Source: Gelidibacter gilvus (GTDB taxonomy: Bacteria > Bacteroidota > Bacteroidia > Flavobacteriales > Flavobacteriaceae). Taken from it: a DNA stretch of 64,000 nucleotides. The first letter of the stretch is position 1. Every line of letters starts with the position of its first letter. Under the pieces are notes generated by a model. It was given only the letters and a program-made list of their open reading frames with translations. It did no database searches and was not told where the DNA came from. Both the position numbers and the translations under genes were made by a program. The stretch lies in assembly GCF_004115975.1 (NCBI RefSeq), contig NZ_SDDZ01000005.1:1-64000 (forward strand), written 5' to 3'. Positions 370 to 40,274 of the stretch are shown piece by piece.

Positions 370-393
370 GTGACCACGAAGGGATTCAAACCC
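370..393 (-). other. tRNA-Arg 3'-end fragment, putative attachment site (distal)
   Basis: These 24 bases are identical to the 3' end of the tRNA-Arg gene (T arm and acceptor strand, 40200-40223). No tRNA body follows on the left or right. This is the usual footprint of integration into a tRNA 3' end. It probably marks the outer boundary of a composite island that ends at the intact tRNA. Confidence 0.75.
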
Positions 394-442
394 AATGTTA
401 AATCAGAGTGTTTATCGGGGTTAGCGAAGCCTGTAAAAATTA

Positions 443-458
443 TGTTGACCGAATTGTT
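443..458 (+). other. 16-bp motif shared with the inverted repeat at 22059-22107
   Basis: TGTTGACCGAATTGTT occurs here, 50 bp inside the left boundary of the first putative element. It occurs again at 22092-22107, just inside the right boundary, with its inverted partner at 22059-22074. Motifs repeated at both ends of an element can be arm-type integrase binding sites. That role is inference. Confidence 0.45.
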
Positions 459-548
459 GTAATAGCATTTCGGGTTGATTGACTACTTTTAGTCTATGAC
501 TAAGTTACAAAACAAAGGGTTTCAAACCTACTTAAATACTAGGAAATA

Positions 549-779
549 CTATGTGGCTTCCTGAAGATATTCGTTGACGAGATCCTCGTCAATACCGGTG
601 TATTGAGCGAATTCTCCTGTAGTCACCAACTGGTTAGACGACTTGCCCAAATGGACCTTTATCTCCTTGAGAAGCCTACGACTGTGCCGCTCACTTCTTC
701 CGGTGATGCGCTGGATTTCCTTTGGGTAAATACAAATTCTTCTTAGCTTCATTTGATACACTATCCATGCTTTATCCAT
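549..779 (-). CDS. Small putative DNA-binding protein (76 aa)
   Basis: A basic N-terminal half contains a helix-turn-helix-like stretch (IQRITGRSERHSRRLLKEIK, about residues 22-41). A second short segment (TGEFAQYTGIDEDLVNEYL) resembles an excisionase/MerR-like recognition helix. The ATG is preceded by an 11-bp tandem repeat at 786-833. I recognise the style as a small flavobacterial accessory protein of unknown function but cannot assign a named family. It stands alone between repeats and may be island cargo or a regulator of the Fic gene. Moderate confidence that it is a real gene. Confidence 0.55.
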   Translation of the reverse strand: MDKAWIVYQMKLRRICIYPKEIQRITGRSERHSRRLLKEIKVHLGKSSNQLVTTGEFAQYTGIDEDLVNEYLQEAT

Positions 780-1221
780 ACATCATCCGTACTTCATCCC
801 TACTTCATCCCTACTTCATCCCTACTTCATCTTTATTATTTAATGAGTTTTTAAATTCGTTATTGAAATAAGCTTTTATATACGAGATCCCTGCCTGCGC
901 AGGGATGCTGATGAACTCCTTCTTACTTATCCTCTTTCTTAAAATAGAATAAATTAGGTTTGAAGGGGTATTAAATTGTAAATAAGGTTAGCGGTTGAAG
1001 ACGGAGATCCCTGCCTGCGCAGGGATTTTGATGGAAGGACTAACGAACTCCTTATGACCTGCCCTTTCTAAAATTACGGGTTGTCCTATTTGTTATTCAA
1101 TAATGTTTAAGATTAAATTTTATCAAATGCAAATTGTTGCGGGCACTCGTTAGCAAGGAGCGTTATCGAGAATGGGAGACCCTGCCTGCGCTGGAATTTT
1201 TACCTGAGCAGGGATTAAGGT
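780..1221. repeat. Intergenic stretch with 11-bp tandem repeats and REP-like hairpins
   Basis: From about 786 to 833 there are four consecutive copies, some degenerate, of an 11-bp unit (TACTTCATCCC). Two nearly identical palindromic units follow, at 887-906 and 1007-1026 (arms ATCCCTGC and GCAGGGAT). A degenerate one lies at about 1171-1217. The same palindrome recurs before tRNA-Arg at 40280-40299 and in weaker form at 55762-55778, so it is a dispersed intergenic repeat family. No gene is visible here. Confidence 0.75.
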
Positions 1222-2760
1222 TTAAAATAATTCAGCAAATTCATTTTCAATTTTAACTATGACTTCTTGCGGGATCTCATCAAAGAACTTCGCTTTTTTG
1301 ACTTGAGATAATTTGCCATTATTCTGAATTAGGAATTTAATTAATAGATCGATGTTTGTATCTGGAAGGGTCACTACCCTATTGATAAATTCCACCATAT
1401 GATCATGTCGCTCCAAAAACTTTATTTCGTTAGGTATTATTTCCTCTATAGTTTCTTCAACACATTCATATAAAAATTCGGCTTGAACCGTTAGATCTGC
1501 ATAGCGGTACAAATCGATGGTTTCATTTAAAATTTCAACATTATAGTCTGCCGTTATTACCCAATCAATCCATTCTAACCGCGTTTCTGAAAACGCCTCC
1601 AATACGTCCTGATACTTGCTGATATTATTTAAAATTGCAGCAGATATTGGGAAAATCATATCCCTGCTGGTATACTTCTTACTTATCAGAGTATGATGCA
1701 TCAGATATCTGTGTAAACGACCATTACCATCAGAAAAAGGATGGATAAACACAAAACCGAATGCGATATGTGTAGCCATTAGAATTGGGTCATATGGACT
1801 GTCATTAAGTATCTTATTGGTTTCCAAAAGTCCGTTGATAAGTAGTGGCAGATCTTTTGCCTTAGCAGATACATGGTCAGGTATTGGCGCAAAGGTTTCG
1901 CGGTCATGTTCGCCGATAAACCCTTCTTCCGTTCTCAACCCCATTTGTTTGAGTTTATTCTGACCAATTACAATGTCCTGTAAACGTTCTAACTCTTGAA
2001 GGTTTAATTCTTTCTTTCCAGCTTGACCGATAGCCTTACCCCAGTTGCGCGCTCTTAGATTTTCTGGCTTCTCCCCTTCAATAGCAAAAGATGCTTTAGA
2101 ATCCTTTAGCAATAAAAAAGCCGCTGTTCTTCTAATTAAATTTCTATCCTTCCCTTTTAAATCGAACTCCATTTTATTAGAAAAATCTTTTTCTTGATAG
2201 GCTTCAATTTTATCTGTTCTATTGATCATTGGACAAAAATCGCGCGTTCCTGGTAAATTGTTTTTTACGCGATGCCTGGTTGAATTAACGGTTGGCCCTG
2301 GGAACTGTAGCTTTGCATTTACAACCTCCACATATGAGCCTATTTTTAGGTCGGGTATATCTAATTTCTTTTCGAAGAGCCATTCATACAAAAACCATAT
2401 CCGTCTTGCATACTGTCCTGTTGGTTCTGATAGTATGTATTCTTTAATGGTGTCCTCACTTAAATTAAGGAACACTTGTTTTAAAATAAACAGGTCGATG
2501 CCTTCATACTTAAGCGCAAATATGATGTGACTTATAAGATCATCTTTAGGTTTATGACGCTTGGTGAAGACTTGCCATTGCTCGGTATCATACCGCTGAT
2601 GTTTGTCGGTAACCAGCGTCAATCTTCTGGGTAAGGGCGCTACTTTATTTGTCTCTTCCAATAGAAACTCTATTAAAAGCGCATAGCCAGCCAAGGTGCC
2701 AGCTTCTGGAGTGTTTCTATTATGAAAAACGGTTATTTGTCGTGAAAAGCAATTACTCAT
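1222..2760 (-). CDS. Fic family protein (class II, AMP-transferase type)
   Basis: Fic enzymes usually transfer AMP from ATP to a hydroxyl of a target protein. The 512-aa product carries the full active-site motif HPFSDGNGR at about residues 339-347, with catalytic His, phosphate-binding GNG and Arg. An upstream SFAIEG at about 223-228 matches the inhibitory (S/T)xxxE(G/N) helix that keeps class II Fic proteins off. The N-terminal ~200 residues and the C-terminal ~100 residues are extensions without an assignable name; the N-terminal part is typical of Bacteroidetes Fic proteins. It stands alone, and no antitoxin gene is next to it, in line with the built-in inhibitory helix. Repeated 17-bp motifs surround its start and likely -7 box, suggesting autoregulation. 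Target unknown. Confidence 0.9.
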   Translation of the reverse strand: MSNCFSRQITVFHNRNTPEAGTLAGYALLIEFLLEETNKVAPLPRRLTLVTDKHQRYDTEQWQVFTKRHKPKDDLISHIIFALKYEGIDLFILKQVFLNLSEDTIKEYILSEPTGQYARRIWFLYEWLFEKKLDIPDLKIGSYVEVVNAKLQFPGPTVNSTRHRVKNNLPGTRDFCPMINRTDKIEAYQEKDFSNKMEFDLKGKDRNLIRRTAAFLLLKDSKASFAIEGEKPENLRARNWGKAIGQAGKKELNLQELERLQDIVIGQNKLKQMGLRTEEGFIGEHDRETFAPIPDHVSAKAKDLPLLINGLLETNKILNDSPYDPILMATHIAFGFVFIHPFSDGNGRLHRYLMHHTLISKKYTSRDMIFPISAAILNNISKYQDVLEAFSETRLEWIDWVITADYNVEILNETIDLYRYADLTVQAEFLYECVEETIEEIIPNEIKFLERHDHMVEFINRVVTLPDTNIDLLIKFLIQNNGKLSQVKKAKFFDEIPQEVIVKIENEFAELF

Positions 2761-4136: not shown

Positions 4137-4865
4137 TTAAGACAATGCAAGCATTAAGATTGCGGCCAAACAAGCACCCACAATAGGTCCTAAAACAGGA
4201 ATCCAAGAGTAAGCCCAATCACTTGAAACTTTATCTTTGATTGGTAAAATAGCGTGCATGATTCTCGGGCCTAAGTCGCGTGCAGGATTTATAGCATAGC
4301 CCGTTGTACCACCTAATGAAAGACCTATGGACCAAACCACAAGTGCAACTGGCAAAGCGCCTAATGAGCCCAGCCCAATTACCGTTTCCGAATCTGCGAT
4401 TGAGGCATCCGTAAAATAAAGAACTGAAAATATCAACACGAATGTACCAACAGCCTCACTAAGGAAATTTGAAAAGAGATTTTTAATTGCTGGTGCCGTA
4501 CAGAAAACAGCTTTTTTTGCACCGCCATCGTCAGTAACCATAAAATGCGGTCTGTATATCAACCAGACTGTTCCAGAACCTATCATGGCACCGAGCATTT
4601 GCGCTAGCACATAAAATGGAACGTCTGCCCAGGGAAACGCACCTGAAACCGCCAATCCTACACTCACAGCAGGGTTTAAATGGGCGCCACTGTATGGTGA
4701 TGCAAATACCACCGCCACATAAACAGCCAATGCCCAACCCGTGGTTATAACAATCCATCCACTGTTGTTTCCTATGGTTTTACTTAACACAACATTTGCC
4801 ACGACGCCTCCACCTAAAAGGATTAATAAAGCGGTTCCGATAATTTCTGATATAAATGGAGTCAT
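4137..4865 (-). CDS. glpF: Glycerol uptake facilitator (aquaglyceroporin)
   Basis: This 242-aa MIP-family channel lets glycerol cross the inner membrane. Both NPA boxes are present: HLNPAVS at about residue 62 and NPARD at about 194. The Asp after the second NPA box is typical of glycerol facilitators rather than strict water channels. Six hydrophobic segments plus the two half-helices fit the family length. The gene lies 94 bp downstream of glpK on the same strand, at the end of the glpD-glpK-glpF series, so it is probably cotranscribed to supply substrate to the kinase. Confidence 0.93.
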   Translation of the reverse strand: MTPFISEIIGTALLILLGGGVVANVVLSKTIGNNSGWIVITTGWALAVYVAVVFASPYSGAHLNPAVSVGLAVSGAFPWADVPFYVLAQMLGAMIGSGTVWLIYRPHFMVTDDGGAKKAVFCTAPAIKNLFSNFLSEAVGTFVLIFSVLYFTDASIADSETVIGLGSLGALPVALVVWSIGLSLGGTTGYAINPARDLGPRIMHAILPIKDKVSSDWAYSWIPVLGPIVGACLAAILMLALS

Positions 4866-4959
4866 TCCTTTTAGTACTTGTTATTGATTATTAATATTAT
4901 CTAAGGGAAAGGTTATGATGAGCAACAGCGTTATAATTTTCCCAAGGGCCAATTTATGA

Positions 4960-6456
4960 TTATTTTTCTCTTGTCCAATATTCTAAAGCATCAATGGCTC
5001 TATACCAACCCTTAATCTCTTTTTCAATATTTTCCCTCTCATTATTAGGTTTAAACCGTTGGTCAGTTTGCCAGATTTCTTGAATTTCTTCTGGATTCTT
5101 CCAATAACCTACTGCCAATCCTGCTAAGAAAGCCGCACCCATGGCAGTAGTTTCCACTATTTTTGGTCGGACAGTTTCTGTGTCCAACACATCTGCCTGA
5201 AACTGCATTAACATGTCATTGATTGTCGCTCCGCCATCAACCCGGAGTTCCTCAATGGATATACCAGAATCAGCCTCCATAGCCTTTAGGATGTCCATAA
5301 CTTGATAGGCAATAGATTCCAAAGCTGCTCGTGCAATATGTGCATCTGTGCTTCCTCTGGTCAAGCCGAAAATTGTACCTTGCGCATGTTGGTTCCAATG
5401 TGGTGCGCCAAGTCCTGCAAATGCGGGTACAAAATAAACCCCGTCAGAGCTCTCCACTGAACTGGCCAATTTTTCGACATCAGCAGAGGTTCTGATGATT
5501 TTCAAACTATCACGAAGCCATTGCACCACAGCTCCTGCAATAAAAATACTCCCTTCAAATGCATATGTTGTTTTGCCGTTAATTTTCCATGCCACGGTGG
5601 TTAGAAGATTATTTTTTGATACCACAGGCTTTTCTCCAATATTCATAAGCATAAAACAACCAGTGCCATACGTAGTTTTCACCATTCCTGGTTTGGTGCA
5701 CATTTGTCCAAATAATGCCGATTGCTGGTCTCCCGCAATGCCTGCTATTGGAATTTTAGCATCATAAAATGTAGAATTGGTATGCCCATAAACTTCACTT
5801 GATGCTTTTACCATTGGCAGCATGCTTTTTGGAACTGTTAATAACTCTAGCAGCTCATCATCCCATTCCATGGTGTTAATATTGAAAAGCATGGTCCTAG
5901 AGGCATTGGTAACATCTGTAATATGTTTTTCTCCTTTGGTGAAATTCCACACCAACCAAGTATCAATGGTTCCTAAAATGAGATCTCCGGCTTCGGCATC
6001 TTCTCTTGCACCTTTTACATTATCCAAGATCCACTTCACTTTAGTACCAGAAAAATAAGAATCGATGACAAGTCCAGTCTTCTCTCTAATCAGGTCGTTT
6101 TTACCTTGCTTTTTCAGTTCATCGCAAAAATCAGAGGTTCTCTTATCCTGCCAAACGATGGCATTATAAACAGGTTTTCCGGTTTTTTTATTCCATACCA
6201 CAACGGTCTCACGCTGGTTGGTAATTCCTATGGCTGCAATATTTTCTATATTTAATCCTTTTTTTGCAATAGCCTCTGCTGCAACCCCTGTTTGAGTGGA
6301 CCAGATTTCCAATGGATCGTGTTCAACCCATCCCGGCTTGGGAAAATATTGGGTAAACTCCTTTTGTGCAATTGTAATTATAGACCCATTTTTATCAAAG
6401 ACGATCGCTCTTGAACTCGTTGTTCCCTGATCTAAAGAAAGTATGTATTTCGCCAT
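4960..6456 (-). CDS. glpK: Glycerol kinase
   Basis: Phosphorylates glycerol to sn-glycerol-3-phosphate with ATP in the cytoplasm. The 498-aa length and the N-terminal [14 protein letters not shown] phosphate-binding signature, plus [13 protein letters not shown] and [16 protein letters not shown], are those of FGGY-family GlpK. All family landmarks look intact. It sits between glpD (65 bp away) and glpF. Together the three give the standard route glycerol, glycerol-3-phosphate, dihydroxyacetone phosphate. Confidence 0.97.
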
Positions 6457-6521
6457 ATTAAATTATTTTTAAACTTATACTTAGATTTAAAATTTTCTTA
6501 AATGCTTAAGACTGATTTCAA

Positions 6522-8123
6522 TTATATTATATATTGATTTGCCAATTGTGTAAATTCTTTTATTTGTGCTGACTCCCAAGTCTGAGGTTTATTTAAGTAC
6601 TGTGCTAAAACATGTGCGACATACGGAGCGACTTCTTGAGCCGCCTTGGCGTCTAAAAATAGAATTCGCACACGTCGCGCCAAAACATCTTCAACGGTAC
6701 GCGCCATTTCATTTGTAACCGCCCAAACCACTTCGGCCTTTAGGAATTCTAACCGAGGGTGTAATTTTTCAGCCAATTCAGGAGTGTCAGCAATCAGGAG
6801 TTCGATGGCTTTTTGATCGGTACCATAAATATAGAGATGATTTGTAGCCTCCGCCGAACCATCGGCGCCATGAATTCGGAGATCTTTAGTCCGACAATTC
6901 TTGTGCGATAATTTCCCTAATGCTATGGCCTTATTTATAGTATCTTGGGCCATTCTTCTATAAGTCGTCCACTTTCCTCCAGTAATCGTCATTAAACCAG
7001 ATTCTGAAACAATAATCTTGTGGCTTCTTGAGATCTCTTTAGTTTTTTCTGAAGCATCCTTTGGAGCTGCCAAAGGGCGCAATCCTGCAAAAATACTCAA
7101 CACATCACTTCTTGAAACCGTTTTATTCAGATAGGCATTTGCCGTTTCCAAAATAAAATCAATCTCCTTTTCCAACGGTTTTGGCTCCAAACTATGGCTA
7201 TCCAATAAGGTATCTGTTGTTCCTACCACGACGCGATTATGCCATGGTACTAAAAAGAGCACTCGTCCATCTGTAGTTTTAGGAATCATTATGGCGTCAT
7301 CCCCAGGCAAAAAGGAACGATCCAATACCAAATGGATGCCTTGGCTTGGCCTTACCGTATTTTTTGCATCAAATTTATCCATTTGTAAAATTTCATCGGT
7401 AAATACGCCAGTTGCATTAATAACTACTTTGGCATTGAGTTGATATTCTACACCACCTTCTGCATCTTTAGCCATGACCCCACTCACTTTGCCTTCTTTA
7501 GTTTTTAGCAATTTGCAAACCTTAAAATGATTTAAAGCCGTCGCGCCTTGCTCGATGCAGGTTTGGGCAATGTTAACCGCTAAGCGCGCATCATCAAATT
7601 GACCATCGTGATAAACTACGCCACCCTTAAGATGCTTGGTTTGAATGGTAGAAAGTCTTTTTGAAGTTTTCTTCTTAGAAATACGAATTGAGGCTCCGAA
7701 ACTTAATTTGCCCGCCAATAAATCATAAACCTTCAAACCTACAGTATAAAGAATAGTGTCCCACCAACTGTAGTTTGGAATAATGAATGATTGATTTTTA
7801 ATGAGGTGAGATGCGTTTTTAAGCATTAATCCCCTCTCATAAAGTGCTTCTTTGACCAAATCAATATTGCCCTGTGCCAAATAACGCACACCGCCATGAA
7901 CCAGTTTTGTACTTCTGCTAGACGTTCCTTTTGCGAAATCGGATTGCTCCAAAAGTAGGGTTTTGAAGCCCCTCGTTACACTATCCAATGCGACACCTAA
8001 TCCAGTTGCACCACCTCCTATAACTATGACATCCCAATTTTGGTTGTCAACTACTTGTTGCACTAATACTTCTCTACTGAACACCTTTTTTGTATTTAGT
8101 ACTGTTACTTCTTTCTTATTCAA
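6522..8123 (-). CDS. glpD: Aerobic glycerol-3-phosphate dehydrogenase (FAD)
   Basis: Oxidises glycerol-3-phosphate to dihydroxyacetone phosphate, passing electrons to the quinone pool at the inner membrane. An N-terminal FAD-binding GGGATGLG motif at about residues 36-43 is followed by GTSSRSTKLVHGGVRYL, highly characteristic of GlpD. Length (533 aa) is normal, including the DAO C-terminal domain. The longest frame starts with TTG at 8123, and a GTG at about codon 14 is an alternative; there is no ATG close by. The gene heads the glpD-glpK-glpF run and follows the GDPD gene by 282 bp. Confidence 0.95.
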   Translation of the reverse strand: MNKKEVTVLNTKKVFSREVLVQQVVDNQNWDVIVIGGGATGLGVALDSVTRGFKTLLLEQSDFAKGTSSRSTKLVHGGVRYLAQGNIDLVKEALYERGLMLKNASHLIKNQSFIIPNYSWWDTILYTVGLKVYDLLAGKLSFGASIRISKKKTSKRLSTIQTKHLKGGVVYHDGQFDDARLAVNIAQTCIEQGATALNHFKVCKLLKTKEGKVSGVMAKDAEGGVEYQLNAKVVINATGVFTDEILQMDKFDAKNTVRPSQGIHLVLDRSFLPGDDAIMIPKTTDGRVLFLVPWHNRVVVGTTDTLLDSHSLEPKPLEKEIDFILETANAYLNKTVSRSDVLSIFAGLRPLAAPKDASEKTKEISRSHKIIVSESGLMTITGGKWTTYRRMAQDTINKAIALGKLSHKNCRTKDLRIHGADGSAEATNHLYIYGTDQKAIELLIADTPELAEKLHPRLEFLKAEVVWAVTNEMARTVEDVLARRVRILFLDAKAAQEVAPYVAHVLAQYLNKPQTWESAQIKEFTQLANQYII

Positions 8124-8405
8124 ACCTACATGTATATAAAGACCTATTTTTTTCTTATTTTTTTGGTGTCCTGACTTTTGATTCTAACCGTTCATTCTGA
8201 ATTCAGAATATTAGCTTATAAAATATGAGTGGTGTTTTTTAATTTCAAAGCACAACTTTTCACTCTTTGATTAAAAGGCTCGCACAAAAAAAGTTTCTGA
8301 AACTTTGACTGGTTCTAGTGACCAACTATCAATTTGCTTATAAGATTTTGAATACGTTGGGACTAGTAATTGGTTATACTTGATCAAAAATGGCATAGGG
8401 CCAGT

Positions 8406-9227
8406 TTAGTTGTCTTTTAAAACTTTAAAAAGCAATTCTGGTTCGTCGGTGGTAATATAATCTACTTTGTTATCCAACAAAGTCTTCATATCCGATTCCT
8501 TGTTCACAGTCCAATAATTGACAGTCATGCCTAAATCATGCGCTTCCTTGACCCAATTAGGATTTTTTAAGAACGTTTTAAAATTGTAATCGATACCTGT
8601 ATAACCTACTGAAAACGCTTCCGCCGGAGTTTTATCACCATTGAGGTAAGCTACTTTAGCTTTTGGGTCTAACTTTTTTATCAATTGTCCAACCTCATAA
8701 CTAAAGCAAATATATTCTACCATAGTCTGCGCTTTTAAACTTTTAACCAGATCTACAGTCATTTCCGTTAATTTCAATGTTCTCTCCAATCCAGAAGGAG
8801 CCGTTTTAATTTCTATAATTAATTTGGTCTTTTTCTGCTTAAGCCCTTCTTCCAAATACGCGTTAACGGTGGGAATTTTTTCTCCGTTTGGATGTTCCTT
8901 AGCCAACAGCTCTTTATAAGTAGAGGTTTCAATATCAATCCCCATAAAATCCTTATCGTGATTCACCACCATGATATCATCTTTTGAAAGATGAATATCA
9001 AATTCAGATCCATAACATCCTAAGGCAATCGCTTCCTTAAGAGAGGCTATGGAGTTTTGTGGCAATCCGGAAGTTTTCCATGCGCCGCGATGTGCGATCA
9101 CTGGATTATTGACGCTTTTACAACTGCCAAGTATTACCAAAAAACCGAGTAACAGGGCCATTTGCGAATAGGTTTTAAGAGATATAATTTTTTGTATCAT
9201 AAATACTTTATTAATATTATTATTCAA
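8406..9227 (-). CDS. Glycerophosphodiester phosphodiesterase, lipoprotein
   Basis: Hydrolyses glycerophosphodiesters (deacylated phospholipids) to glycerol-3-phosphate and an alcohol. The protein opens with a signal peptide ending in a lipobox (VILGSC), so it should be a lipid-anchored envelope protein. The GDPD core follows: AHRGAWKTSGLPQNS at about 44-58, EFDIH at about 76-80 and a second catalytic His in VVNHDKDF. Methionine 10 gives a more usual signal peptide than methionine 1. It lies between glpD and a metallophosphoesterase, so the product could enter GlpD directly. It is functionally like GlpQ, though not necessarily orthologous. Confidence 0.92.
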   Translation of the reverse strand: MNNNINKVFMIQKIISLKTYSQMALLLGFLVILGSCKSVNNPVIAHRGAWKTSGLPQNSIASLKEAIALGCYGSEFDIHLSKDDIMVVNHDKDFMGIDIETSTYKELLAKEHPNGEKIPTVNAYLEEGLKQKKTKLIIEIKTAPSGLERTLKLTEMTVDLVKSLKAQTMVEYICFSYEVGQLIKKLDPKAKVAYLNGDKTPAEAFSVGYTGIDYNFKTFLKNPNWVKEAHDLGMTVNYWTVNKESDMKTLLDNKVDYITTDEPELLFKVLKDN

Positions 9228-9286
9228 TAAATAGAATTTGTTTGATCTAGAATAGGCAACTCAACAAGCTATGAAGCATCCTGAAC

Positions 9287-31169: not shown

Positions 31170-31497
31170 AATAATATAAGTTTAAGTTATGCCATTCAAT
31201 TAGCTTAAAACTCATGAATTATGAATGGCAATAATCCTTGAGTTTTTTTTATACTGTCACTCTGGGTGGTCACCCTCTTTTACAACCGTTGTAATTTTTC
31301 AGTTTTGTATTATCAAATTCCTATTTTCATTTGATAATTGTCATTATAAAATAAGAGAAAAGTATTCTTCATCTTTGGAGCATAGCTATTGCAATCTTGA
31401 GCAAAAAATGATACCAAAAAAATAGAGTAAAAAAATCCTGCTGTTATTGATTGGCAATATATATCGAAATCACAAAACAACGGCAAGGCTCGCCCAT
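31170..31497. other. Intergenic region with a 9-bp inverted repeat
   Basis: Holds an inverted repeat TGCCATTCA/TGAATGGCA at 31190-31198 and 31221-31229 that could be a regulator site upstream of the precursor. The promoter of the precursor-GLPGLI-receptor unit should be here. No gene recognised. Confidence 0.4.
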
Positions 31498-31527
31498 AAA
31501 AAAAGTAAGGGCAGCCCTTACTTTTTC
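31498..31527 (-). terminator. Terminator of the two-component operon
   Basis: Perfect 12-bp arms (AAAAAGTAAGGG/CCCTTACTTTTT) with a 3-nt loop and a poly-U end on the minus strand, 30 bp past the response regulator stop. Confidence 0.8.
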
Positions 31528-31556
31528 ATGGTATTGAATATATGTTTAAAACGGTT

Positions 31557-32240
31557 TTATATAAATCCCTTTTCCTTTGCTTTTTGCAACAATTCTTTAT
31601 CATAGGGACTTACTGCATCAAAAATTTGTTTTAAGTGGCGTTTTCTTTTTTCTAAAGCCGGGAGCGAGAGCTGTAAAAGTTCTGGCAGATCCTTCATCAT
31701 GGTACCAATAGAAAGCTCATACAGTAGCTTTCTATCAATAGCATCTACAATAAAGTCAGAAGCAACCTCGTTTCTCAACAATTTAATGACCGTTTTACTG
31801 TAATACGGAGGGTCTGTAAGTACTGTGTTAATTGCTGCAACCAGTCCCATAGGATTGATATCATTTTTAACTAAAAACCCATCAGGATTAAGATTTTTAA
31901 AAAGGCTATGAACTCTATAATTGTCATTGAAAGTTGTTGACACTATAATCCTTGTACTAGGCATCAATTCATTGATTTTTAAACCTAAATCTTCACCAGA
32001 AAGTATATACCCATCTTTTGAAGACGGCAAACTGATGTCCAACAATATAATATCGGGGTTTTTATTCTGTGATGAAAAATGCATTATCTTTTCTAAAGCG
32101 CTATCACAATCATGGGCCTCCTCAATATCAAAGGATAGGGAATCATTCTGTTTTTCAATATAATTAAATGCACTTTTATAAGCAGAAGTTATTAAAGGGT
32201 GGTCATCAATGATTAATACTGTGTATAATTTATGTTCCAT
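31557..32240 (-). CDS. NarL-type response regulator
   Basis: 227 aa. The receiver domain holds the acidic pair IIDDHP near the start, the phosphorylation Asp in IILLDISLP at about residue 66 and a Lys in FLVKND. The C-terminal ~60 residues (LLYELSIGTMMKDLPELLQLSLPALEKRKRHLKQIF) resemble a diverged LuxR-type helix-turn-helix. The kinase gene is 6 bp upstream. It likely controls the peptide locus or its receptor. Confidence 0.85.
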   Translation of the reverse strand: MEHKLYTVLIIDDHPLITSAYKSAFNYIEKQNDSLSFDIEEAHDCDSALEKIMHFSSQNKNPDIILLDISLPSSKDGYILSGEDLGLKINELMPSTRIIVSTTFNDNYRVHSLFKNLNPDGFLVKNDINPMGLVAAINTVLTDPPYYSKTVIKLLRNEVASDFIVDAIDRKLLYELSIGTMMKDLPELLQLSLPALEKRKRHLKQIFDAVSPYDKELLQKAKEKGFI

Positions 32241-32246
32241 AGTTTT

Positions 32247-34121
32247 TTACTGAATTGGAATTGTAAAATGTATTGTAGTTCCTTTGTCTATTTCTGATTG
32301 AATACCAAATACGCCTTTTAATTTTTCTATTCGGGATTTCATGTTTTTAATACCGATGCCTTGCTTTTGCTTTTTTATTTGGAAGCCTGTTCCATCATCG
32401 TTCAGAATTACAATTAAATTGTTTTTTTCAATAGAAAAACTTAAACTTACTTTTTCTGCTCTTGCGTATTTAACGATATTCTGTAAAGATTCCTGTAATA
32501 TTCTATATAAGTTGACTTTAATAATTTCATCTATTTCGCTCCATCCAATATTTTCGTCAATATCCAGTTGATAGGTGAAATTGCCCAAGCGGCTTTTATT
32601 TTCGAGAAGTTGCTTTAATATGGAGCTAAAATCAATTTCGTAGCTATTGAAATTAATATTTAGCCTATGTGAAACTTCCCTGATTTCCTTTTCTATAAGC
32701 TGCAATTCATCTAAAAACACCTCATGCTGCTTTAAGGTGCCGTCATCTCCCTTGATATCCAAAAATCCCAAATCGACCCGCACCCCGAACAGTTTCCCTA
32801 AGATACCGTCATGCAACTCCTGCGAAATCCTGTTGCGCTCTCTTGTTTTTTCTTCTTCTAATTTAATCTGTTGCTTGAGTGTTAAAATATAGATTTGCTC
32901 ATTGGCTTTTTGTTGTTCGGTTTCTAAAACGAGCCTTTTTGTCCTCGATTTTTGAACTATGATATAATATATTAACGATATAATCAGAATAAGAACCAAA
33001 GAGCCAATTAATAGGAGCGTTTGTTGTTGTGACAGCCGTTTGGTTTCCTCAATATACTCATCGGTTTCGTAGGCTATCCGGGTAAATTTATTTTGGACCT
33101 TGCGGTCTGCATTTTGCAAGCTATCACTAAAACTGATGTACTTGTTAAGATAATCGGTTGCATTTTCAGCATCCAGTTTGGATAATAAATGAAGCGATGT
33201 CAAATAATCTCGACTATTTTTTATTTCCTTGGATAATACATTGGCTTCTTCAGCATATTGGATAGCTTTTAATGAGTCCTTGATTAAAGCGTAATATTCC
33301 GATAAATGGATCTTACTGGTCACAATTCCTTCCTTATTACGCAAACTATCTCTAATAGTTAAAGAACGATAAAAATCTTGTTTTACATTTGTTGTATCTC
33401 CATTTAAAAGATGAGTATAAGCTCTGTTTTCCAGTACTCGGCCATAATGGTCAATGTCACGTGTTTTTAGATTATCATCATTCAAAATCCTGTCAAAATA
33501 CCCCAAGGCTATGTCATATTCTCCCATATCTTGATATATTAAGGCCATATTATTGAGTCCAGAATTTTTAGGTAATTTATCTTTTTCAAGTTTAGTTTGA
33601 TACTCTAAGGCTTTTTTATAGTAAAATAAAGCTCTGTCATATTCTTTCATTCCACTGTACAAAATACCTAGATGTTCATAAGCACCAAATAAAGCTTTAT
33701 AATCATTCAATATTTTGTATTTCTCAATAGCTTTTACCATAAGTATTTCACTCCCTGAATAATCTCGAAATCTTCCTTTTATAAACGACATGCCATAGAG
33801 CATTTTAGCGGCGTAATATTGGTGGTCAATGCTCTCAAAATAATTATAGGCGATGTTATAATGGTAATAAGCGGAATCATATACTTGCAGTCCTTTATAG
33901 AGGTTGGCCGTGCTCCAATGAGTATCGGCAATAGAAAAGGTATCTCTTAGTTTTAAGGCATGTGCGTAAACTTCATTGTTTAGCTTTCTAAAATTGATAG
34001 TGTCTTTCAATAAAAGATATTGATATGTCATCAGGCTAAGTTTTCTGGTTGCCAACGTGTCAATTTTACTTGAATTTATGACTGCATACGCTCTATCTAA
34101 ATATGATCTTCGCTCATCCAA
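32247..34121 (-). CDS. Tetratricopeptide sensor histidine kinase (NarX/HisKA_3 type)
   Basis: The N-terminal half is built of TPR helices (ALFYYKKALEYQ, IALGYFDRIL) that would face the periplasm. One membrane segment (about 368-388, LLIGSLVLILIISLIYYII) is followed by a coiled coil and the HisKA_3 motif ISQELHDGI (phospho-acceptor His at about 435), then an HATPase with NDDGTGF and GIGIKNMKSR. The frame start at 34121 is a TTG. The same frame stays open upstream and encodes a lipoprotein signal (FIILLSCS), beginning at an ATC codon at 34274 instead of ATG. The true start is therefore unclear. The IS element ends only about 40 bp further upstream. Confidence 0.85.
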   Translation of the reverse strand: MDERRSYLDRAYAVINSSKIDTLATRKLSLMTYQYLLLKDTINFRKLNNEVYAHALKLRDTFSIADTHWSTANLYKGLQVYDSAYYHYNIAYNYFESIDHQYYAAKMLYGMSFIKGRFRDYSGSEILMVKAIEKYKILNDYKALFGAYEHLGILYSGMKEYDRALFYYKKALEYQTKLEKDKLPKNSGLNNMALIYQDMGEYDIALGYFDRILNDDNLKTRDIDHYGRVLENRAYTHLLNGDTTNVKQDFYRSLTIRDSLRNKEGIVTSKIHLSEYYALIKDSLKAIQYAEEANVLSKEIKNSRDYLTSLHLLSKLDAENATDYLNKYISFSDSLQNADRKVQNKFTRIAYETDEYIEETKRLSQQQTLLLIGSLVLILIISLIYYIIVQKSRTKRLVLETEQQKANEQIYILTLKQQIKLEEEKTRERNRISQELHDGILGKLFGVRVDLGFLDIKGDDGTLKQHEVFLDELQLIEKEIREVSHRLNINFNSYEIDFSSILKQLLENKSRLGNFTYQLDIDENIGWSEIDEIIKVNLYRILQESLQNIVKYARAEKVSLSFSIEKNNLIVILNDDGTGFQIKKQKQGIGIKNMKSRIEKLKGVFGIQSEIDKGTTIHFTIPIQ

Positions 34122-34311
34122 TGACAGTGAATTGTCTTTTGAAAAAGTAATCCAAGAAGAAACACTATCATTATGAGAAGTCGAAGGTTGTTCGGATTCA
34201 TCTGGTTTACCGTAACTACAACTCAGTAAAATGATAAATAAAAAAATAACCTTTATTTGGGAGCGAGTTTTGATGTAGATGCTATTAATTGTTTAATAAT
34301 GCAAAATAACG

Positions 34312-36050
34312 AAAAAGAAGCCGTCTCAATACCTGAGGCGGCTTTTTGCATTAAATTACTTGTTAAAAAGTGGATTGTTATGTATCTTTAAGCATTGATA
34401 ATCAACGATATGAATACTAATTTCCAGTCTTATAACCAGCAACAAAATTGGCTTTTCCCTCCCTCCATTGAAGAACTTGTTCCCATTGAACATCCCGTGC
34501 GCGTTGTCAATGGAATAATCGAGCAGCTCGATCTGAACCTGCTTATCGAGGAATATAGCAAAGAGGGCAAGCCGAGCTATCATCCCAAAATGATGCTCAA
34601 GGTAATGGTCTATGCGTACATGGACAATACTTACTCCAGCCGTAAGATCGAAAGGGCCATGCGCGAGAACATTAACTTCATGTGGCTGGCCGCGCAACAG
34701 GTGGCAGACCACAATACCATTGCGCGCTTCAGGAGCAAAAAACTCAAATCCATTTTTAAAGACATCTTCAAGCAGGTAGTACTGCTGTTGGCCGAAGAGG
34801 GACTGATCACTTTAAAGGAAGTCTTTACGGACGGCACGAAGATCGAGTCGGTCGCCGGACGGTATACCTTCGTTTGGGGGAATGCCATCAAGACCCGGAA
34901 AGAGAAGATGGTAGAGCAGCTCGAAGAGATGTGGCAGTATGCACAAAGTATTGCCGATGAAGAGGACAGTGACCCGGTACCACCGGACTTTAAAAAGATC
35001 GATAGTGAGAAGGTGGAAAGGACAGCCAACAAGATAGCGGAGATCATCAGCAAGAATCCCAGGGCCAGCGGCAGGGCAAAGGCAAAGCTCCGGTATATCC
35101 AAAAGAACTTTCCGCAGAACCTGGACAGGTATGAAGAACAGGAAAAGACCTTGGCCGGACGCGGCAGCTATAGCAAAACGGATCCCGATGCCACCTTTAT
35201 GCGGATGAAAGATGACCACATGCAGAACGGGCAGCTCAAGCCGGGCTATAACGTGCAGTTGAGTTCTGAATCCCAGTTTGTCATCCACTACACCCTGCAC
35301 CAGACCACCAACGACCTCAATACATTAAAGCCACATCTGGACACCTTTGAATCCTTGTATGAGTTCTTGCCAGAGCAGCTCACCGCAGATGCGGGCTATG
35401 GAAGCGAAGAGAACTATGAATTTTTGGAAGAAAAAGGGATAGGGACCTATGTTAAGTATAGCACCTTTGACAAAGAACAGGGCATCTTAAAATCAAAACG
35501 AAAAAAGAAAAACGAGGGCTTCCACAGAGATAAACTATACTACAGCCAAGAACAGGACCATTACATATGCCCGATGGGTCAACCCATGGAGAACATCGGG
35601 GAGCGAAAGGGAAAGACCAAATCTGGCTACTTGCAGAAAAGCAGTATGTACCAAGCCCAGAACTGTCAGGGCTGTCCACTGCGCACAGGCTGTTTTAAGG
35701 CAAAGGGCAATAGAATCGTCGAACGTAACCACGCTCTGGAAGGGTACAAGGAAAAAGTGAGGGAAAACCTGCTCAGCGAAATGGGAATAATAAAACGCAG
35801 ACAGCGCACCGCTGATGTGGAACCTGTATTTGCCCAGATCAAATCAAATAGGAACTTCAATCGATTCACCCACAGAGGGATAGAAAAGGTAGAGTTAGAG
35901 TTCGGATTGCATGCACTGGCACATAATCTAAGGAAGAAAAGTGCCTGAGAAGGCAACTTTCAAACTAAAAAATAAATCACTGCCAAATAAATATTAGTAG
36001 TGAAAATAAAAAAAACCGTCCCAATATGATTATTGAGACGGCTTCTTTTT
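34312..36050 (+). mobile_element. IS1182-type insertion sequence
   Basis: A 1,739-bp element with perfect 20-bp terminal inverted repeats (AAAAAGAAGCCGTCTCAATA at 34312-34331 and its complement at 36031-36050) around one transposase gene. Each end folds into a hairpin with a T run, which can isolate the element from host transcription. I see no clear target-site duplication. It lies between the two-component system and the second precursor gene and so splits the peptide locus. Its coding sequence is richer in G+C than the neighbours, suggesting recent arrival. Confidence 0.9.
34410..35948 (+). CDS. IS1182 family transposase
   Basis: 513 aa from the ATG at 34410; an earlier TTG gives 5 more residues. 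N-terminal DUF772-like domain (YHPKMMLKVMVYAYMDNTYSSRKIE) and DDE catalytic region: TDGTKIE at about 139, TADAGYGSEEN at about 325 and VEPVFAQIK at about 470. A cysteine cluster (CQGCPLRTGCF) is also family-typical. The gene is intact, so the element may still move. Confidence 0.94.
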   Translation: MNTNFQSYNQQQNWLFPPSIEELVPIEHPVRVVNGIIEQLDLNLLIEEYSKEGKPSYHPKMMLKVMVYAYMDNTYSSRKIERAMRENINFMWLAAQQVADHNTIARFRSKKLKSIFKDIFKQVVLLLAEEGLITLKEVFTDGTKIESVAGRYTFVWGNAIKTRKEKMVEQLEEMWQYAQSIADEEDSDPVPPDFKKIDSEKVERTANKIAEIISKNPRASGRAKAKLRYIQKNFPQNLDRYEEQEKTLAGRGSYSKTDPDATFMRMKDDHMQNGQLKPGYNVQLSSESQFVIHYTLHQTTNDLNTLKPHLDTFESLYEFLPEQLTADAGYGSEENYEFLEEKGIGTYVKYSTFDKEQGILKSKRKKKNEGFHRDKLYYSQEQDHYICPMGQPMENIGERKGKTKSGYLQKSSMYQAQNCQGCPLRTGCFKAKGNRIVERNHALEGYKEKVRENLLSEMGIIKRRQRTADVEPVFAQIKSNRNFNRFTHRGIEKVELEFGLHALAHNLRKKSA

Positions 36051-36216
36051 GATTTTTTTTAATTGCTGATAATCTTGAGTTACATTAGTAAGGCTCACCC
36101 TTACTATTTCTACGGGCGAACCGTAACGATCTTTAATTAATTCTTTATAGATTTAATCAAAACTAAAACTGTCAATTTTATAAAATGGAAACAGTTTGAA
36201 ATATAATGATTAAACT
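36051..36216. other. Spacer between the IS and the second precursor gene
   Basis: AT-rich sequence that should hold the promoter of the rightward precursor-thioredoxin genes. Nothing specific recognised. Confidence 0.35.
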
Positions 36217-36677
36217 ATGGATAATTGTTACTCCTCAACGAAGCAACTTCTTAAATTACATAAGATAAAGCACACTAACACTTATATAAAAGATAGTGTA
36301 CTGTCTCATCCAGACCACCCAAGTTTATTAACTATAGCTGACACGTTAACAAAATATGACATTGAAAATGTAGCCATTAGGATTTCAGAAGTTAAATTTG
36401 ATGAGTTACCTACACCATGTATCATTCAAGTTTCCGTACTTGGTACAACATTATTTTATACATTAAATAAAATCACGAAATTAAGTTTGAAAAATTTGAA
36501 ATTAGGAGCAGATGATATGCTTCAGCGTAGTCAACTTAAAACTGTATTTGGTGGATATGGTGGCGGTTCCTGCCAATCATGGGTAAATGGAACTCACTAA
36601 GCGATGCTCAAGGTGATTATGCTATTTGTATAGAAAACGGCCATAGTGATTGTGGATATTGTTGCGCAGGCTGTTAA
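36217..36677 (+). pseudogene. C39/VKOR-like fragment joined to a frameshifted GG-leader precursor
   Basis: Residues 1 to about 86 of the 127-aa frame (SVLSHPDHPSLLTIADTLTKYDIEN, FDELPTPCIIQ) match the cysteine-peptidase-39-like N-terminal domain found on VKOR/thioredoxin fusion proteins. The frame then runs into KLSLKNLKLGADDMLQRSQL and KTVFGGYGGGSC, a precursor leader whose expected ATG is ACG at 36475. This frame ends at 36600. One frame over, a continuation with NSLSDAQGDYAICIENG, HSDCGYCCAGC runs to TAA at 36677 and looks like the missing core. So this is a gene fusion plus a frameshift just after the double glycine. Confidence 0.6.
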
Positions 36678-36711
36678 TATCTTGTAGATTTAATTTCAAT
36701 AATTTAACAAA

Positions 36712-36739
36712 AGCAGTGAGATGAATTAATCTCACTGCT
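36712..36739 (+). terminator. Hairpin after precursor 2
   Basis: Perfect 11-bp arms (AGCAGTGAGAT/ATCTCACTGCT) with a 6-nt loop, 35 bp after the reconstructed precursor stop and ahead of the thioredoxin-like gene. It mirrors the hairpin after precursor 1 and may be a partial terminator. Confidence 0.6.
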
Positions 36740-36761
36740 ACCTAATTTTAAATAAACACTC

Positions 36762-38228
36762 ATGAAGAAAATTCTATTGCTCGTCTTATTAATTGTCTCC
36801 TGTAAGAATGACCCTTCTCACGAGAAAACGGAGCTTGATAAAACAGATACAGAAACTATCAACAGTACTTCAATATATTTTCATTCAAAACCTAAGGATA
36901 CGCTTCATTTTCAGAATAGAGAGATTAAGTTTCCTTCTGTAGTTGAAATTTTAAACGAGAATGGATTTCGAAAAGAGTTGATTGTTAATCACGATGGAGA
37001 TAAATTTGAATATGCTCCAGAAAAAGATTTCTTTTTTATAAAACATACCTATCGCAGTGATGATCTCTATTTTGAGATGAAAAAAGGAGATTCGGTGAGG
37101 TACCATGAAAAAGATGGTTTTCCATTTTATGTTGGGAATGATAAAAAACTAAACGAAAGTAATCTTTATGATTATAAGAGAATGACGTATTTAAATACCT
37201 CATCACCTTCCGACTCTTATTCTTATTATTTATCTAATAGACATGCCATAACTGATTTTAAGAAATTGAGAGAAAATTATCTCCAAGAATTACGCCATCT
37301 CAATAAAAAAGAAGCGATTTTGTTGGATTCGTTGTATGCGTTACATCAAATTACGGAATCTAGATACCAATTGCAGAAAAACAGATTAAAATTTAGTCTA
37401 TATAATTCAGTTCATCCTAATGATTTTAAGAATTATGCCATAGCCGACACACTAAGTAATTATTTAAATAAAGATGATTTGATCAAATTTTCATTTTACA
37501 AAACGTTTCTTCAAAATTACTCTAGATATAAATTTAATTCCAAACTTATTAGGCAATCCAATAAATCCATTTTAGATTTTAAGACAAATTTTGATTCAAT
37601 AGCCCAGTCTAATCAATTCTCTTCAAATGTAAAGACCTATTTATTATATCATAATCTCGTCGAAATAGGCTCTAATTTCTCCGAAGAAGACTTTAACGCC
37701 TATTTTAAAAAATTTCAAGATATGGTAACTGATTCAATTTTAATTTCTTCTCTTAATAGTAAGTTTTTAACAAACCTCTCTGAGTCAATAGAAAATATAG
37801 AAGATGTCCATTTTATAACAAATAACAAAACAAGTAAAACGTTGAAAGGCATAATAAGTGATAATTACGGGAAAGTGATCTATCTTGATTTCTGGGCGAG
37901 TTGGTGTGGACCTTGCCGCATAGCGATGCCATTTTCCGAAAAGTTAAAAAAAGATTATGAAAATAAAAATGTGGTTTTTATGTATGTTTCTATAGATAAA
38001 GATTTTGAAAAATGGGAAAAGGCCTCACAAGAAGATGGTTTACTTTCTTTAGAGAACAATCTTTTAGCTGCGAACTATCCAAAAGCCGATTTTTACAGCA
38101 ATTTGGCACTAGAAACAATTCCGCGATACTTATTATATGATAAAGAAGGTAAATTGATTTACCGAAATGCGCCAGGCCCAGGAGGCGATGAAATAAGGAA
38201 GTTGCTTGATAAGCTTTTAAAAGAATAG
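36762..38228 (+). CDS. TlpA-like thioredoxin lipoprotein
   Basis: 488 aa. The signal peptide ends in a lipobox (LLIVSCKND). A long region of unknown fold (about 30-360) precedes a TlpA/AhpC-TSA thioredoxin domain with WASWCGPCR; the redox pair is at about residues 381-384, and a cis-Pro (ETIPRYLLYD) follows. The protein probably makes or reduces disulfides in the envelope. Next to cysteine-containing peptide precursors and C39-type genes, a role in peptide maturation is likely (inference). Confidence 0.88.
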   Translation: MKKILLLVLLIVSCKNDPSHEKTELDKTDTETINSTSIYFHSKPKDTLHFQNREIKFPSVVEILNENGFRKELIVNHDGDKFEYAPEKDFFFIKHTYRSDDLYFEMKKGDSVRYHEKDGFPFYVGNDKKLNESNLYDYKRMTYLNTSSPSDSYSYYLSNRHAITDFKKLRENYLQELRHLNKKEAILLDSLYALHQITESRYQLQKNRLKFSLYNSVHPNDFKNYAIADTLSNYLNKDDLIKFSFYKTFLQNYSRYKFNSKLIRQSNKSILDFKTNFDSIAQSNQFSSNVKTYLLYHNLVEIGSNFSEEDFNAYFKKFQDMVTDSILISSLNSKFLTNLSESIENIEDVHFITNNKTSKTLKGIISDNYGKVIYLDFWASWCGPCRIAMPFSEKLKKDYENKNVVFMYVSIDKDFEKWEKASQEDGLLSLENNLLAANYPKADFYSNLALETIPRYLLYDKEGKLIYRNAPGPGGDEIRKLLDKLLKE

Positions 38229-38702
38229 ATGTCAAAATTTCCATTTTACAAACAACCTGACTCCAAAGAATGCGCCCCACCTGTTTGCGCATCGCTGCAA
38301 AGTACTTTGGCAAACTTATTACTTTACAAGAAATTAGAGATCTATCTGAAACAACCAGAGAAGGTAGTTTGTTAAAGTTAAGTGATGCTGCTGAAAGTAT
38401 AGGTTTTAAAACCATAGGAGTTAAAATTGATTTTCAAAAAACTTAAAGAAGCACCTTTACCTTTAATTGTACATTTTAATAACAATCATTTCATAACAGT
38501 TTATAAGATAAAAAATGATATGGTCTTCATGTCGGATCTTGCTTATGGCTTGATAACTTATACCAAGGACGAGTTTATATCCAGATGGATTGGTAACAAC
38601 GCCAACGAAAGCACAAAAGAAGGTGTTGCATTATTGTTAGAAAATACACCAAAATTCAAAGAATTAGATTGGATAAAACGGACAAACGATCTTTTAAATT
38701 AA
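38229..38702 (+). pseudogene. Broken C39 peptidase domain of a peptide exporter
   Basis: Translating across frames from ATG at 38229 gives FPFYKQPDSKEC, GPTC-like, YFGKLITLQEIRDLSETT, GSLLKLSDAAESIGFK, then PLPLIVHFNNNHFITVYK. These are the Cys and His blocks of the C39 peptidase that cleaves double-glycine leaders at the N-terminus of peptide ABC exporters. A base is missing in the Cys box (near 38270) and an extra A lies in the run at 38436-38441. The gene then stops after TPKFKELDW with no membrane or ATPase part. Processing capacity is lost here. Confidence 0.75.
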
Positions 38703-38722
38703 ATATAAATCAAAAACCCAAT

Positions 38723-39967
38723 TCAATCCTTTTTCAACTCATCTTTAACATTCAACATCTTCTGCAAATCAATCATATCCTTACTCAACTTCTCCTCCAA
38801 AACACGAGCATAAATTTGGGTTGTTGATACTTTCAAATGACCTAATAATTTAGACACCGTCTCTATAGGCACACCGTTGCTCAGGGTAACGGTTGTGGCG
38901 AAGGTATGGCGAGCCATATGAAAGGTGAGATTTTTTCTAATACCAACCACTGATGCAATTTCTTTAAGATACAAATTGACTTTCACATTGCTTACTACGG
39001 GAAACAAGGTTTCTGAGATGACAGCCATAGGATGATTATCATATTTTTCCAAGAGAAATTTCGCCTTATCTAGTAAAGGCACTTTTACTTTTGTTTTAGT
39101 TTTTTGACGATGTGTAATGATCCAATTATTACCATCCATTCCTTCTAAAACATGTTTTGGCTTGAGAGTTTTAATATCAGCATAACTGATCCCGGTATAG
39201 CAGCTGAAAAGAAAAACATCCCGTACTCTTTCTAGTCGTCCAATTGGAAAATCATAAGTTTCAAGATTAGACAATTCATTTGCAGTCAAAAAATCACGTT
39301 CCTTCTTTTCATAACTCATTTTCCAGCGCATGAATGGATCTTTGTCCAACCATTCCAAATGATAGGAAAGCGTCACCATTTTACGAAGCCTCTGAATGTG
39401 TTTCATGACCGTATTATGCCCCATCTCCCTATCGTGTCCATTTGGATAGTATGCGTTAAGAAACCGCTCAAAATCACAAATAAATTTATAATCCAATTGT
39501 TTTAGCACAATATCCTTAATTTTTCTATCCTTTAGAAGAAACTTCTTAATGTAGTCTTCAGTGACCCCATAATTTCTAATCGAACCAGTTGCATGTGTGT
39601 TCTCTATTTTCTTTGAATGGTAATCAATAAGTTCCAGTAAGGTTTTGGAACTTTCATCCTCGCCAAGAAAAATAGTCTTAATTCTTTTAGCCGTAATAAG
39701 TTCTCCTTGAAATTTTAAATCCTGAAATATTTGAAAGAGTAATACTCGTGATTCCTCCAAATATTGATTAATTTGTTTTGCTTCAGAAGAGTTACCTAAA
39801 ACCTTTTTGTTCTTATTGTCCCACAAGTCGAGGGGCACTTTTCTTTTTAAGCTGATTTCAATTCTTTGCTGATTGACAGTTATCCTAGCATAAAGTAAGG
39901 CACTGTTGTTTTGTGATTTCTTGGGATTTACCCAAAAGCGGATGGAAAATGTTTTTGAAGTACGCAT
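38723..39967 (-). CDS. Tyrosine recombinase (site-specific integrase)
   Basis: Catalyses integration and excision at the tRNA site. 414 aa from the ATG at 39967, which aligns with the start of the related remnant at 21995; an upstream start would add 8 residues. Domain order: arm-type DNA-binding (SKTFSIRFWVNPKK), SAM-like core-binding (about 100-205), catalytic domain with FHMARHTFAT (HxxR, at about 348-357) and the Tyr nucleophile in TTQIYARVL at about 387. The usual first catalytic Arg position reads CYTGISYADI, as in many Bacteroidetes relatives. It points away from tRNA-Arg, about 235 bp from it. Confidence 0.92.
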   Translation of the reverse strand: MRTSKTFSIRFWVNPKKSQNNSALLYARITVNQQRIEISLKRKVPLDLWDNKNKKVLGNSSEAKQINQYLEESRVLLFQIFQDLKFQGELITAKRIKTIFLGEDESSKTLLELIDYHSKKIENTHATGSIRNYGVTEDYIKKFLLKDRKIKDIVLKQLDYKFICDFERFLNAYYPNGHDREMGHNTVMKHIQRLRKMVTLSYHLEWLDKDPFMRWKMSYEKKERDFLTANELSNLETYDFPIGRLERVRDVFLFSCYTGISYADIKTLKPKHVLEGMDGNNWIITHRQKTKTKVKVPLLDKAKFLLEKYDNHPMAVISETLFPVVSNVKVNLYLKEIASVVGIRKNLTFHMARHTFATTVTLSNGVPIETVSKLLGHLKVSTTQIYARVLEEKLSKDMIDLQKMLNVKDELKKD

Positions 39968-40039
39968 AGTTGTCGTCTTTAAATGAAACAATCTTTTAAG
40001 ACGAAAGTCAAATCAACTACATCAATACAATTTAGGGAA

Positions 40040-40078
40040 TTTTATTTAAAAGAGACCTCAGGTCTCTTTTAAATAAAA
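40040..40078. terminator. Long perfect palindrome between integrase and tRNA
   Basis: Perfect 18-bp arms with a 3-nt loop (TCA). The arms start TTTTATTTAAAAGAGACC. It could be a bidirectional terminator or a recombination-directing site near the attachment core. Confidence 0.6.
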
Positions 40079-40142
40079 GGTCTCCTTTTAGCTACCATTT
40101 TAAATCAAATCATATCAAATTAAATGAACCCATAGAAACCTA

Positions 40143-40176
40143 AAAACCAAGCGAATCCTACAGATTGCTTGGTTTT
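40143..40176 (-). terminator. Terminator downstream of tRNA-Arg
   Basis: Arms AAAACCAAGC/GCTTGGTTTT with a 14-nt loop and flanking T run on the minus strand, 25 bp past the tRNA 3' end. Confidence 0.7.
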
Positions 40177-40200
40177 GACATCCTTTGAAGATGCTAAAAG

Positions 40201-40274
40201 TGACCACGAAGGGATTCAAACCCCCGACCGCTGGAGCCGAAATCCAGTGCTCTATTCAGCTGAGCTACGTGGCC
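40201..40274 (-). tRNA. tRNA-Arg (UCG)
   Basis: A 74-nt cloverleaf reads on the minus strand: acceptor GGCCACG paired with CGTGGTC, D arm GCTCAGCTGAATAGAGC, anticodon stem CTGGA/TCCAG with loop TTTCGGC (anticodon TCG, codon CGA), T loop TTTGAAT, discriminator A. CCA is not encoded. Its 3' 24 nt are repeated at 370 and 22190, marking it as the integration site. Confidence 0.95.

Follow-up and report, generated by a model that had tools for sequence, protein, structure and literature searches.

The DNA analysed here, called the window, is a 64,000-nucleotide stretch of Gelidibacter gilvus (Flavobacteriaceae) that starts at the first base of contig NZ_SDDZ01000005.1 (C39). A minus-strand tRNA-Arg(tcg) gene next to yqeY-ftsZ-ftsA is followed there by about 40 kb in which the 3' end of this gene, the 24-mer GTGACCACGAAGGGATTCAAACCC, recurs. 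Its three exact copies lie on the same strand and delimit two intervals, element 2 beside the tRNA gene and element 1 beyond it (Table 1). Each interval ends on its right with an integrase of one family, open in element 2 and broken in element 1. The 4.63-Mb assembly (42 contigs) holds no further place with up to two mismatches to GTGACCACGAAGGGATTCAAACCC, and none of 100 shuffled windows contained it with up to three mismatches allowed. Both the three same-orientation repeats and the two integrases had been reported in the preliminary description of this DNA, and the scatter of the motif over many unrelated places that it named as speaking against an insertion did not occur.

Empty sites and the displaced flank

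The left edge joined to an intact tRNA gene in relatives, which the preliminary description had called for, was found in seven of the eight other Gelidibacter genomes compared (G001 and G003 to G008). The tRNA gene of these congeners is joined directly to the sequence lying beyond the copy at 370, including the terminator and an array of 86-bp terminator-like units. The region thus combines tRNA 3'-end repeats at its borders, an integrase adjoining the tRNA gene and an empty site in relatives, as known for tRNA-associated genomic islands. As the window starts at base 1 of its contig, within the array, the left flank was sought elsewhere, on contig C1. This contig begins in the same array (units at C1:1-743 and 1028-1161) and runs on into the genes that G006 and G008 have behind the array; of the two flank genes compared, one is 81% identical to its G006 counterpart and the other, encoding pirin, 90% identical to that of G008. 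Beyond the array, G004 and G006 carry a short, decayed right end of an element 2 relative. Array copy number is variable, and C1 and C39 both terminate in the array; related units occur in congeners and at about 49.0-49.3 kb of contig C37, at the distal end of a tRNA-Arg(acg) island. Because the congener tRNA directly joins this flank and C1 extends it into conserved genes, the ancestral terminator now lies 40 kb from its tRNA gene, as had been proposed.

We consider it very probable that the 3' end of tRNA-Arg(tcg) has taken up a tandem of two integrative elements from one family found in Flavobacteriaceae, that they displaced the ancestral terminator by 40 kb, and that each carries its own terminator-like hairpin. 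A tyrosine recombinase would recombine the tRNA end carried by the circular element with its counterpart in the gene, which would keep the tRNA complete and move the old flank to the element's far side. If a second element used an existing core copy, three cores and the 40-kb distance between tRNA and ancestral terminator would result. The hairpin just inside the core would give the tRNA a terminator again about 23 nt downstream and could shield the co-directional integrase gene from the tRNA promoter. Element 1, whose integrase core was lost (an IS110 fragment stands there), would be a passenger resembling a cis-mobilizable element (CIME), and element 2, with its intact integrase and one mobilization gene, may still be mobile. 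Such a tandem is a case of accretion between a CIME and an integrative and conjugative or mobilizable element (ICE or IME), a process already described.

Some observations weigh against this reading. G. algens (G002) has no empty site, another tRNA-Arg(tcg) gene standing there beside yqeY with a 90% identical integrase, and the G003 contig stops 74 bp beyond the tRNA gene, so that the junction alone is visible there. In G. salicanalis, outside the eight congeners, a related right end with a broken integrase frame occupies the same tRNA gene with different DNA behind it. Moreover, the motif GGTAGCTA at the inner ends of element 2 (only at 22274 and 40089 in the window) is short, and its count is not above chance, at least two copies being present in 26 of 100 shuffles.

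Two further observations concern the tRNA gene itself. It apparently has A19 and U56 (numbering by eye), a matched change from G19 and C56, the usually conserved D-loop/T-loop pair. The tRNA-Arg(tcg) gene beside yqeY in G. algens (L071, 2647-2721) has 76% similarity to the gene of the congeners. A short hairpin repeat, GAGATCCCTGC..GCAGGGAT, lies at 884-913, 1004-1033, and 40280-40299, the last copy being between yqeY and the tRNA gene, with more copies elsewhere in the genome.

Table 1. Positions in the window of the two elements and their features
Feature	Position	Strand	Remarks
86-bp tandem array of terminator-like units	1-343		Resumes on contig C1
Ancestral tRNA terminator	321-349	-	First array unit
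Attachment (att) core copy, distal end	370-393		Exact 24-mer
Element 1	394-22189		Core-to-core spacing 21,820 bp
Possible arm-type site AACAATTCGGTCAACA, element 1 left end	443-458	-	Motif search
67-residue open reading frame (ORF), element 1 left end	549-752	-	Similar DNA at C37 and C33 island ends
Fic-domain protein	1222-2760	-	PADLOC candidate PDC-S24 (candidate defence type)
Glycerol/glycerophosphodiester locus	4137-18741		MIP channel, FGGY kinase, FAD glycerophosphate oxidoreductase, GDPD, phosphoesterase, BACON protein, SusD, SusC, DeoR regulator
Integrase stub (arm domain) fused in frame to IS110 transposase C-terminus	21435-21995	-	
Two inverted AACAATTCGGTCAACA copies, element 1 right end	22059-22107		Motif search
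Terminator-like hairpin of element 1	22132-22166	-	
att core copy separating elements 1 and 2	22190-22213		Exact 24-mer
Element 2	22214-40199		Core-to-core spacing 18,010 bp
Possible arm-type site GGTAGCTA, element 2 left end	22274-22281	-	Motif search
BfmA/BtgA-type mobilization protein	23168-23554	-	
AbiEii and AbiEi toxin-antitoxin pair	24168-25863	-	
IS1182 transposase inside element 2	34395-35948	+	
Intact tyrosine integrase	38723-39991	-	Arm-DNA-bind_5, SAM_5, Phage_integrase domains
Possible arm-type site GGTAGCTA, element 2 right end	40089-40096	-	Motif search
Terminator-like hairpin of element 2, now following the tRNA	40143-40176	-	-15.1 kcal/mol at +23
att core copy inside the tRNA gene	40200-40223		Exact 24-mer
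tRNA-Arg(tcg), target gene	40200-40274	-	Adjoins yqeY-ftsZ-ftsA; Rfam tRNA match 40201-40274

The hairpin between the tRNA gene and the integrase

Recomputation recovered the three hairpins of the preliminary description; that of element 2 was missed by a strict scan because its loop exceeds the limit of 8. Flanks were taken for the closer integrase matches only (79 relatives' loci), and a same-strand tRNA, the only orientation counted, lies within 360 bp upstream of the integrase in 63 of them and is absent from 16. Within the first 130 nt, 60 of these 63 junctions show a terminator-like hairpin with an energy of -7 kcal/mol or better, against 7.55 expected from 20 shuffles per junction. It starts 20-24 nt after the tRNA in 44 of the 60 and 16-24 nt after it in 54. 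The native terminators at empty sites (three tried) have an offset of 19 nt. After near-copies (identical at 52 or more of 56 bases) and L051 had been removed, 50 rows remained, of which 43 were aligned, seven having been left out beforehand for a hairpin elsewhere or another layout (L050, L056, L057, L059, L062, L063, and L082). In the alignment, 85.9% of the cells pair and both sides change in 11 of the 14 pairs. The covariation score of 0.376 was reached by none of 500 shuffles, which score 0.126 (standard deviation, 0.016), and sliding gives 0.07-0.12; scores of this kind are inflated by relatedness. An A-tract before the stem, a T-tract after it and a further T-run are nearly invariant. 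Since the hairpin after tRNA-Arg(tcg) in the window is near-identical to the one after tRNA-Arg(acg) in G. japonicus (G008), the hairpin travels with the element. Judged from its sequence, it looks like an element-borne replacement terminator, and its excess and covariation agree with the earlier proposal that each element would rebuild both the tRNA end and the terminator.

Not every junction conforms: the hairpin lies elsewhere in 6 of the 60 (L050, L056, L057, L059, L063, and L124), three junctions have none by this threshold (L051, L125, and L171, the last at -6.7), and the covariation would equally fit a DNA palindrome bound by protein. The hairpin could, indeed, be such a palindrome, to which the integrase or some accessory protein binds, or else an attenuator in the 5' untranslated region of int that tunes tRNA-driven transcription. 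Some parts of the stem keep their sequence as well as their pairing, and stem-loops in the 5' untranslated region of ICEKp1 attenuate the tRNA-int transcript according to PMC13023037. We nevertheless regard this as doubtful, given the nearly invariant flanking tracts and an offset close to that of native terminators.

If the hairpin is a replacement terminator, a broader proposition arises, to which we give about even chances: the whole Bacteroidota family of tRNA-targeting integrative elements would carry a dedicated covarying terminator module at the tRNA-proximal attachment site, which would replace the displaced native terminator, insulate the integrase from the tRNA promoter (the opposite of ICEKp1), and let islands stack harmlessly. 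No earlier report of such a family-wide replacement terminator was found among the open-licence papers that the literature searches listed. This yields a testable rule, namely, that elements of the family bring their own tRNA terminator and, if true, built-in terminators would help explain how tRNA genes tolerate repeated insertion. Beside the clean multispecies case of accretion, which shows the empty sites, the shifted terminator, and the undamaged target gene together, the recurrence of built-in terminators across the family is the part worth follow-up. Separately, a box of the GATTTGAC type was noticed between tRNA and integrase at 41 of the 63 junctions and at 25 of the 28 junctions of the closest relatives described below.

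Integrase relatives, cargo and the history of the pair

The tRNA genes at the 63 junctions are Arg (31), Pro (17), Ser (6), Asp (3), Lys (3), Met (1), Asn (1), and Val (1). Among the 34 integrases of at least 57% identity (the window integrase included), 28 have a tRNA gene, always tRNA-Arg (15 acg, 13 tcg), 197-246 bp before the integrase match; the other six (L079, L080, L081, L169, L170, and L179) have no such gene, its place being taken by an exact tRNA-Arg end in L079 and by an approximate one in L080. A quick tree of 74 rows, with support from the Shimodaira-Hasegawa-like approximate likelihood ratio test (SH-aLRT) only, L079 and L080 labelled by their cores and two truncated G. gilvus integrases (C9, C3) left out as too short, groups 32 rows in an Arg clade (16 acg, 14 tcg, 2 unlabelled; SH-aLRT, 99) that contains every Arg row except L082. 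On this tree the Arg isoacceptor changes at least 8 times and the amino acid 9 times. A T-loop shared by the two isoacceptors was insufficient as a cause of this switching (TTTGAAT in 16 of 16 acg and 9 of 14 tcg integrase-adjacent tRNAs). The idea that swapping the tRNA 3' end leaves mismatched lower T-stem pairs was dropped as unconvincing: pairs other than Watson-Crick occur at 49-65 in 11 of 41 integrase-adjacent tRNAs versus 2 of 25 others and at 50-64 in 13 of 41 versus 10 of 25.

Within G. gilvus, family integrases adjoin three tRNA-Arg genes (tcg, acg, and tct). Contigs C9 and C3 end within family integrases next to tRNA-Arg(acg) and tRNA-Arg(tct). Contigs C37 and C33 each carry an element left end resembling that of element 1 (95% and 77% identity, respectively), followed by a tRNA-Arg 3' end, acg or tct, and then by a terminator; they look like the matching distal ends of the C9 and C3 islands, paired here by their cores across contigs unjoined in the assembly. 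A tandem in a second species is visible on G003:C4, where the exact 24-bp core at tRNA-Arg(acg) occurs again 34.6 kb further, ahead of an integrase. For G008:C21, a circular attP form was considered, and a tandem junction is likelier because the contig also carries tRNA-Lys and a second integrase. In L066 (about 2726), L067 (about 17446), L081, and L169, right ends follow only about 8-10 bp of the tRNA end (e.g., CGTGGTCAC) with no tRNA gene there; these may be secondary insertions or decayed tRNAs and may mark the crossover point.

By its integrase, element 2 qualifies as an IME or ICE. The integrase gene begins 208 bp downstream of the tRNA gene in the same direction, and a sigma-70-type promoter scan around it found none. 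A search of solved structures gave eight matches, for the most part to short stretches of Xer, integron, or integrase C-terminal sequence. At the position of the first catalytic arginine it apparently reads TGISYADI, with serine replacing arginine, which we take to be a trait of IntDOT-type integrases. Besides the genes in Table 1, element 2 encodes a GLPGLI protein, a histidine kinase, a response regulator, a thioredoxin-domain protein, two C39-peptidase-like proteins, one of them scoring under the cut-off, and a large protein with CarboxypepD_reg domains, read as putatively receptor-like. Among the window ORFs searched, the BfmA-type protein was the only sign of mobilization in element 2, and no relaxase or conjugation gene and no RteC, TraG, TraM, or Mob gene was found. 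On G006:C3, the genes behind a 58% identical integrase at tRNA-Arg(acg) encode BfmA, a MobB relaxase, a coupling protein with a weak match to MobC, an AbiEii protein, TraM, a DUF4138 protein, TraG, and, at a greater distance, RteC; the distal end of that element was not found within 40 kb, so that some of these genes may lie outside it. Element 2 looks like a reduced relative of this type of element.

Element 1 has lost its integrase, keeps its att borders, and stands in tandem with an integrase-bearing element, as CIMEs do. The arm domain of its integrase stub is 45-49% identical to the element 2 integrase over about 70-80 residues, and the IS110 match fused to it (E value, 1.8e-10) is below the curated cut-off of the IS110 family. 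Like element 2, element 1 has matching motifs at its two inner ends, here AACAATTCGGTCAACA, which the window contains at 443, 22059, and 22092 and nowhere else. The small ORF at its left end, with no Pfam or NCBIfam match, could possibly encode an accessory recombination protein. The phosphoesterase of element 1 and the receptor-like protein of element 2, which were the cargo proteins tried, match nothing closely in the eight congeners (best matches, 31% identity and 32% over the full length, respectively), which speaks against the region being scattered core genome of relatives, the outcome that the preliminary description had named as contrary to its reading. In a sample of 120 genomes of the bacterial family, the phosphoesterase has a single close homologue (68%), in G124, where 9 of the 13 element 1 proteins tried match at 54-77%; the 52 kb examined there hold no tRNA gene and, as an integrase, a distant match only (26%).

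How the pair came to its place allows other histories than two insertions at this site. The two elements could have arrived as one composite in a single integration, accretion having happened elsewhere; transfer of CIME-ICE tandems is on record (PMC5704250), all three cores are identical, and the empty sites of the congeners equally fit one event. We find this unlikely: the end motifs of the elements differ, which may keep a single integrase from acting at both outer ends, and the 29 integrase-relative loci compared share no cargo stretch of at least 150 bp with the pair, except 26012-26296 in L169. As regards the two successive insertions of the preliminary description, the tandem architecture is supported and the order is not readable from the layout, because element 1 inserting into the distal att copy of element 2 gives the same arrangement. 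An insertion of a younger element 1 into that distal core, giving the same final order and compatible with the sequence seen, is nonetheless improbable in view of its decayed integrase beside the open one of element 2; this decay alone hints that element 1 is the older.

Relation to known integrative elements

The tandem proposed here belongs with a well-described kind of history, and Pavlovic 2004 is reportedly among the studies cited in its review. In that review, ICEs or IMEs become CIMEs, which then take part in accretion, a three-step history (PMC5704250). As in these cases, the Gelidibacter pair sets an element that has decayed but retains both att copies in line with one that still bears an integrase; the pair differs from the cases reviewed there in its Bacteroidota host and tRNA-Arg site; since its end motifs differ, cis-mobilization of element 1 is doubtful. 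Serial islands are likewise known at ssrA of Dehalococcoides, bounded by 20-bp copies of the 3' end of the target RNA gene; that target is a transfer-messenger RNA, and the text of PMC3146451 does not use the word terminator. The Riemerella 10K island (PMC6764341) also occupies an Arg-tRNA gene, with a repeat of 53 bp.

The orientation of integrases relative to tRNA genes is a subject of PMC2951348. In ICEKp1 at tRNA-Asn, according to PMC13023037, the native terminator is displaced and int is driven from the tRNA promoter, and a terminator inserted there left no transconjugants. The Gelidibacter elements resemble ICEKp1 in an integrase gene downstream of and co-directional with the tRNA gene and in a native terminator moved to the far end, and differ from its promoter capture by the terminator-like hairpin built in between tRNA and int. 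If this hairpin terminates transcription, the two would embody opposite strategies toward the strong promoter behind which they land.

Bacteroides elements of the CTnDOT/NBU type are tyrosine-integrase elements with Mob and Tra genes; the Gelidibacter pair has the tyrosine integrase in common with them, and Mob and Tra genes stand only behind the related G006 integrase. Three loci of Escherichia coli K-12 served as a control, the ssrA stretch beginning inside ssrA, whose end we take to be at about 2755955. A terminator-like hairpin also lies between RNA gene and integrase at leuX-intB and ssrA-intA and not at argW-intS, with no shared fixed-place hairpin among the three. Element-borne terminators are thus not unique to the Gelidibacter integrase family; fixed position and conserved form are what sets the hairpin of this family apart.

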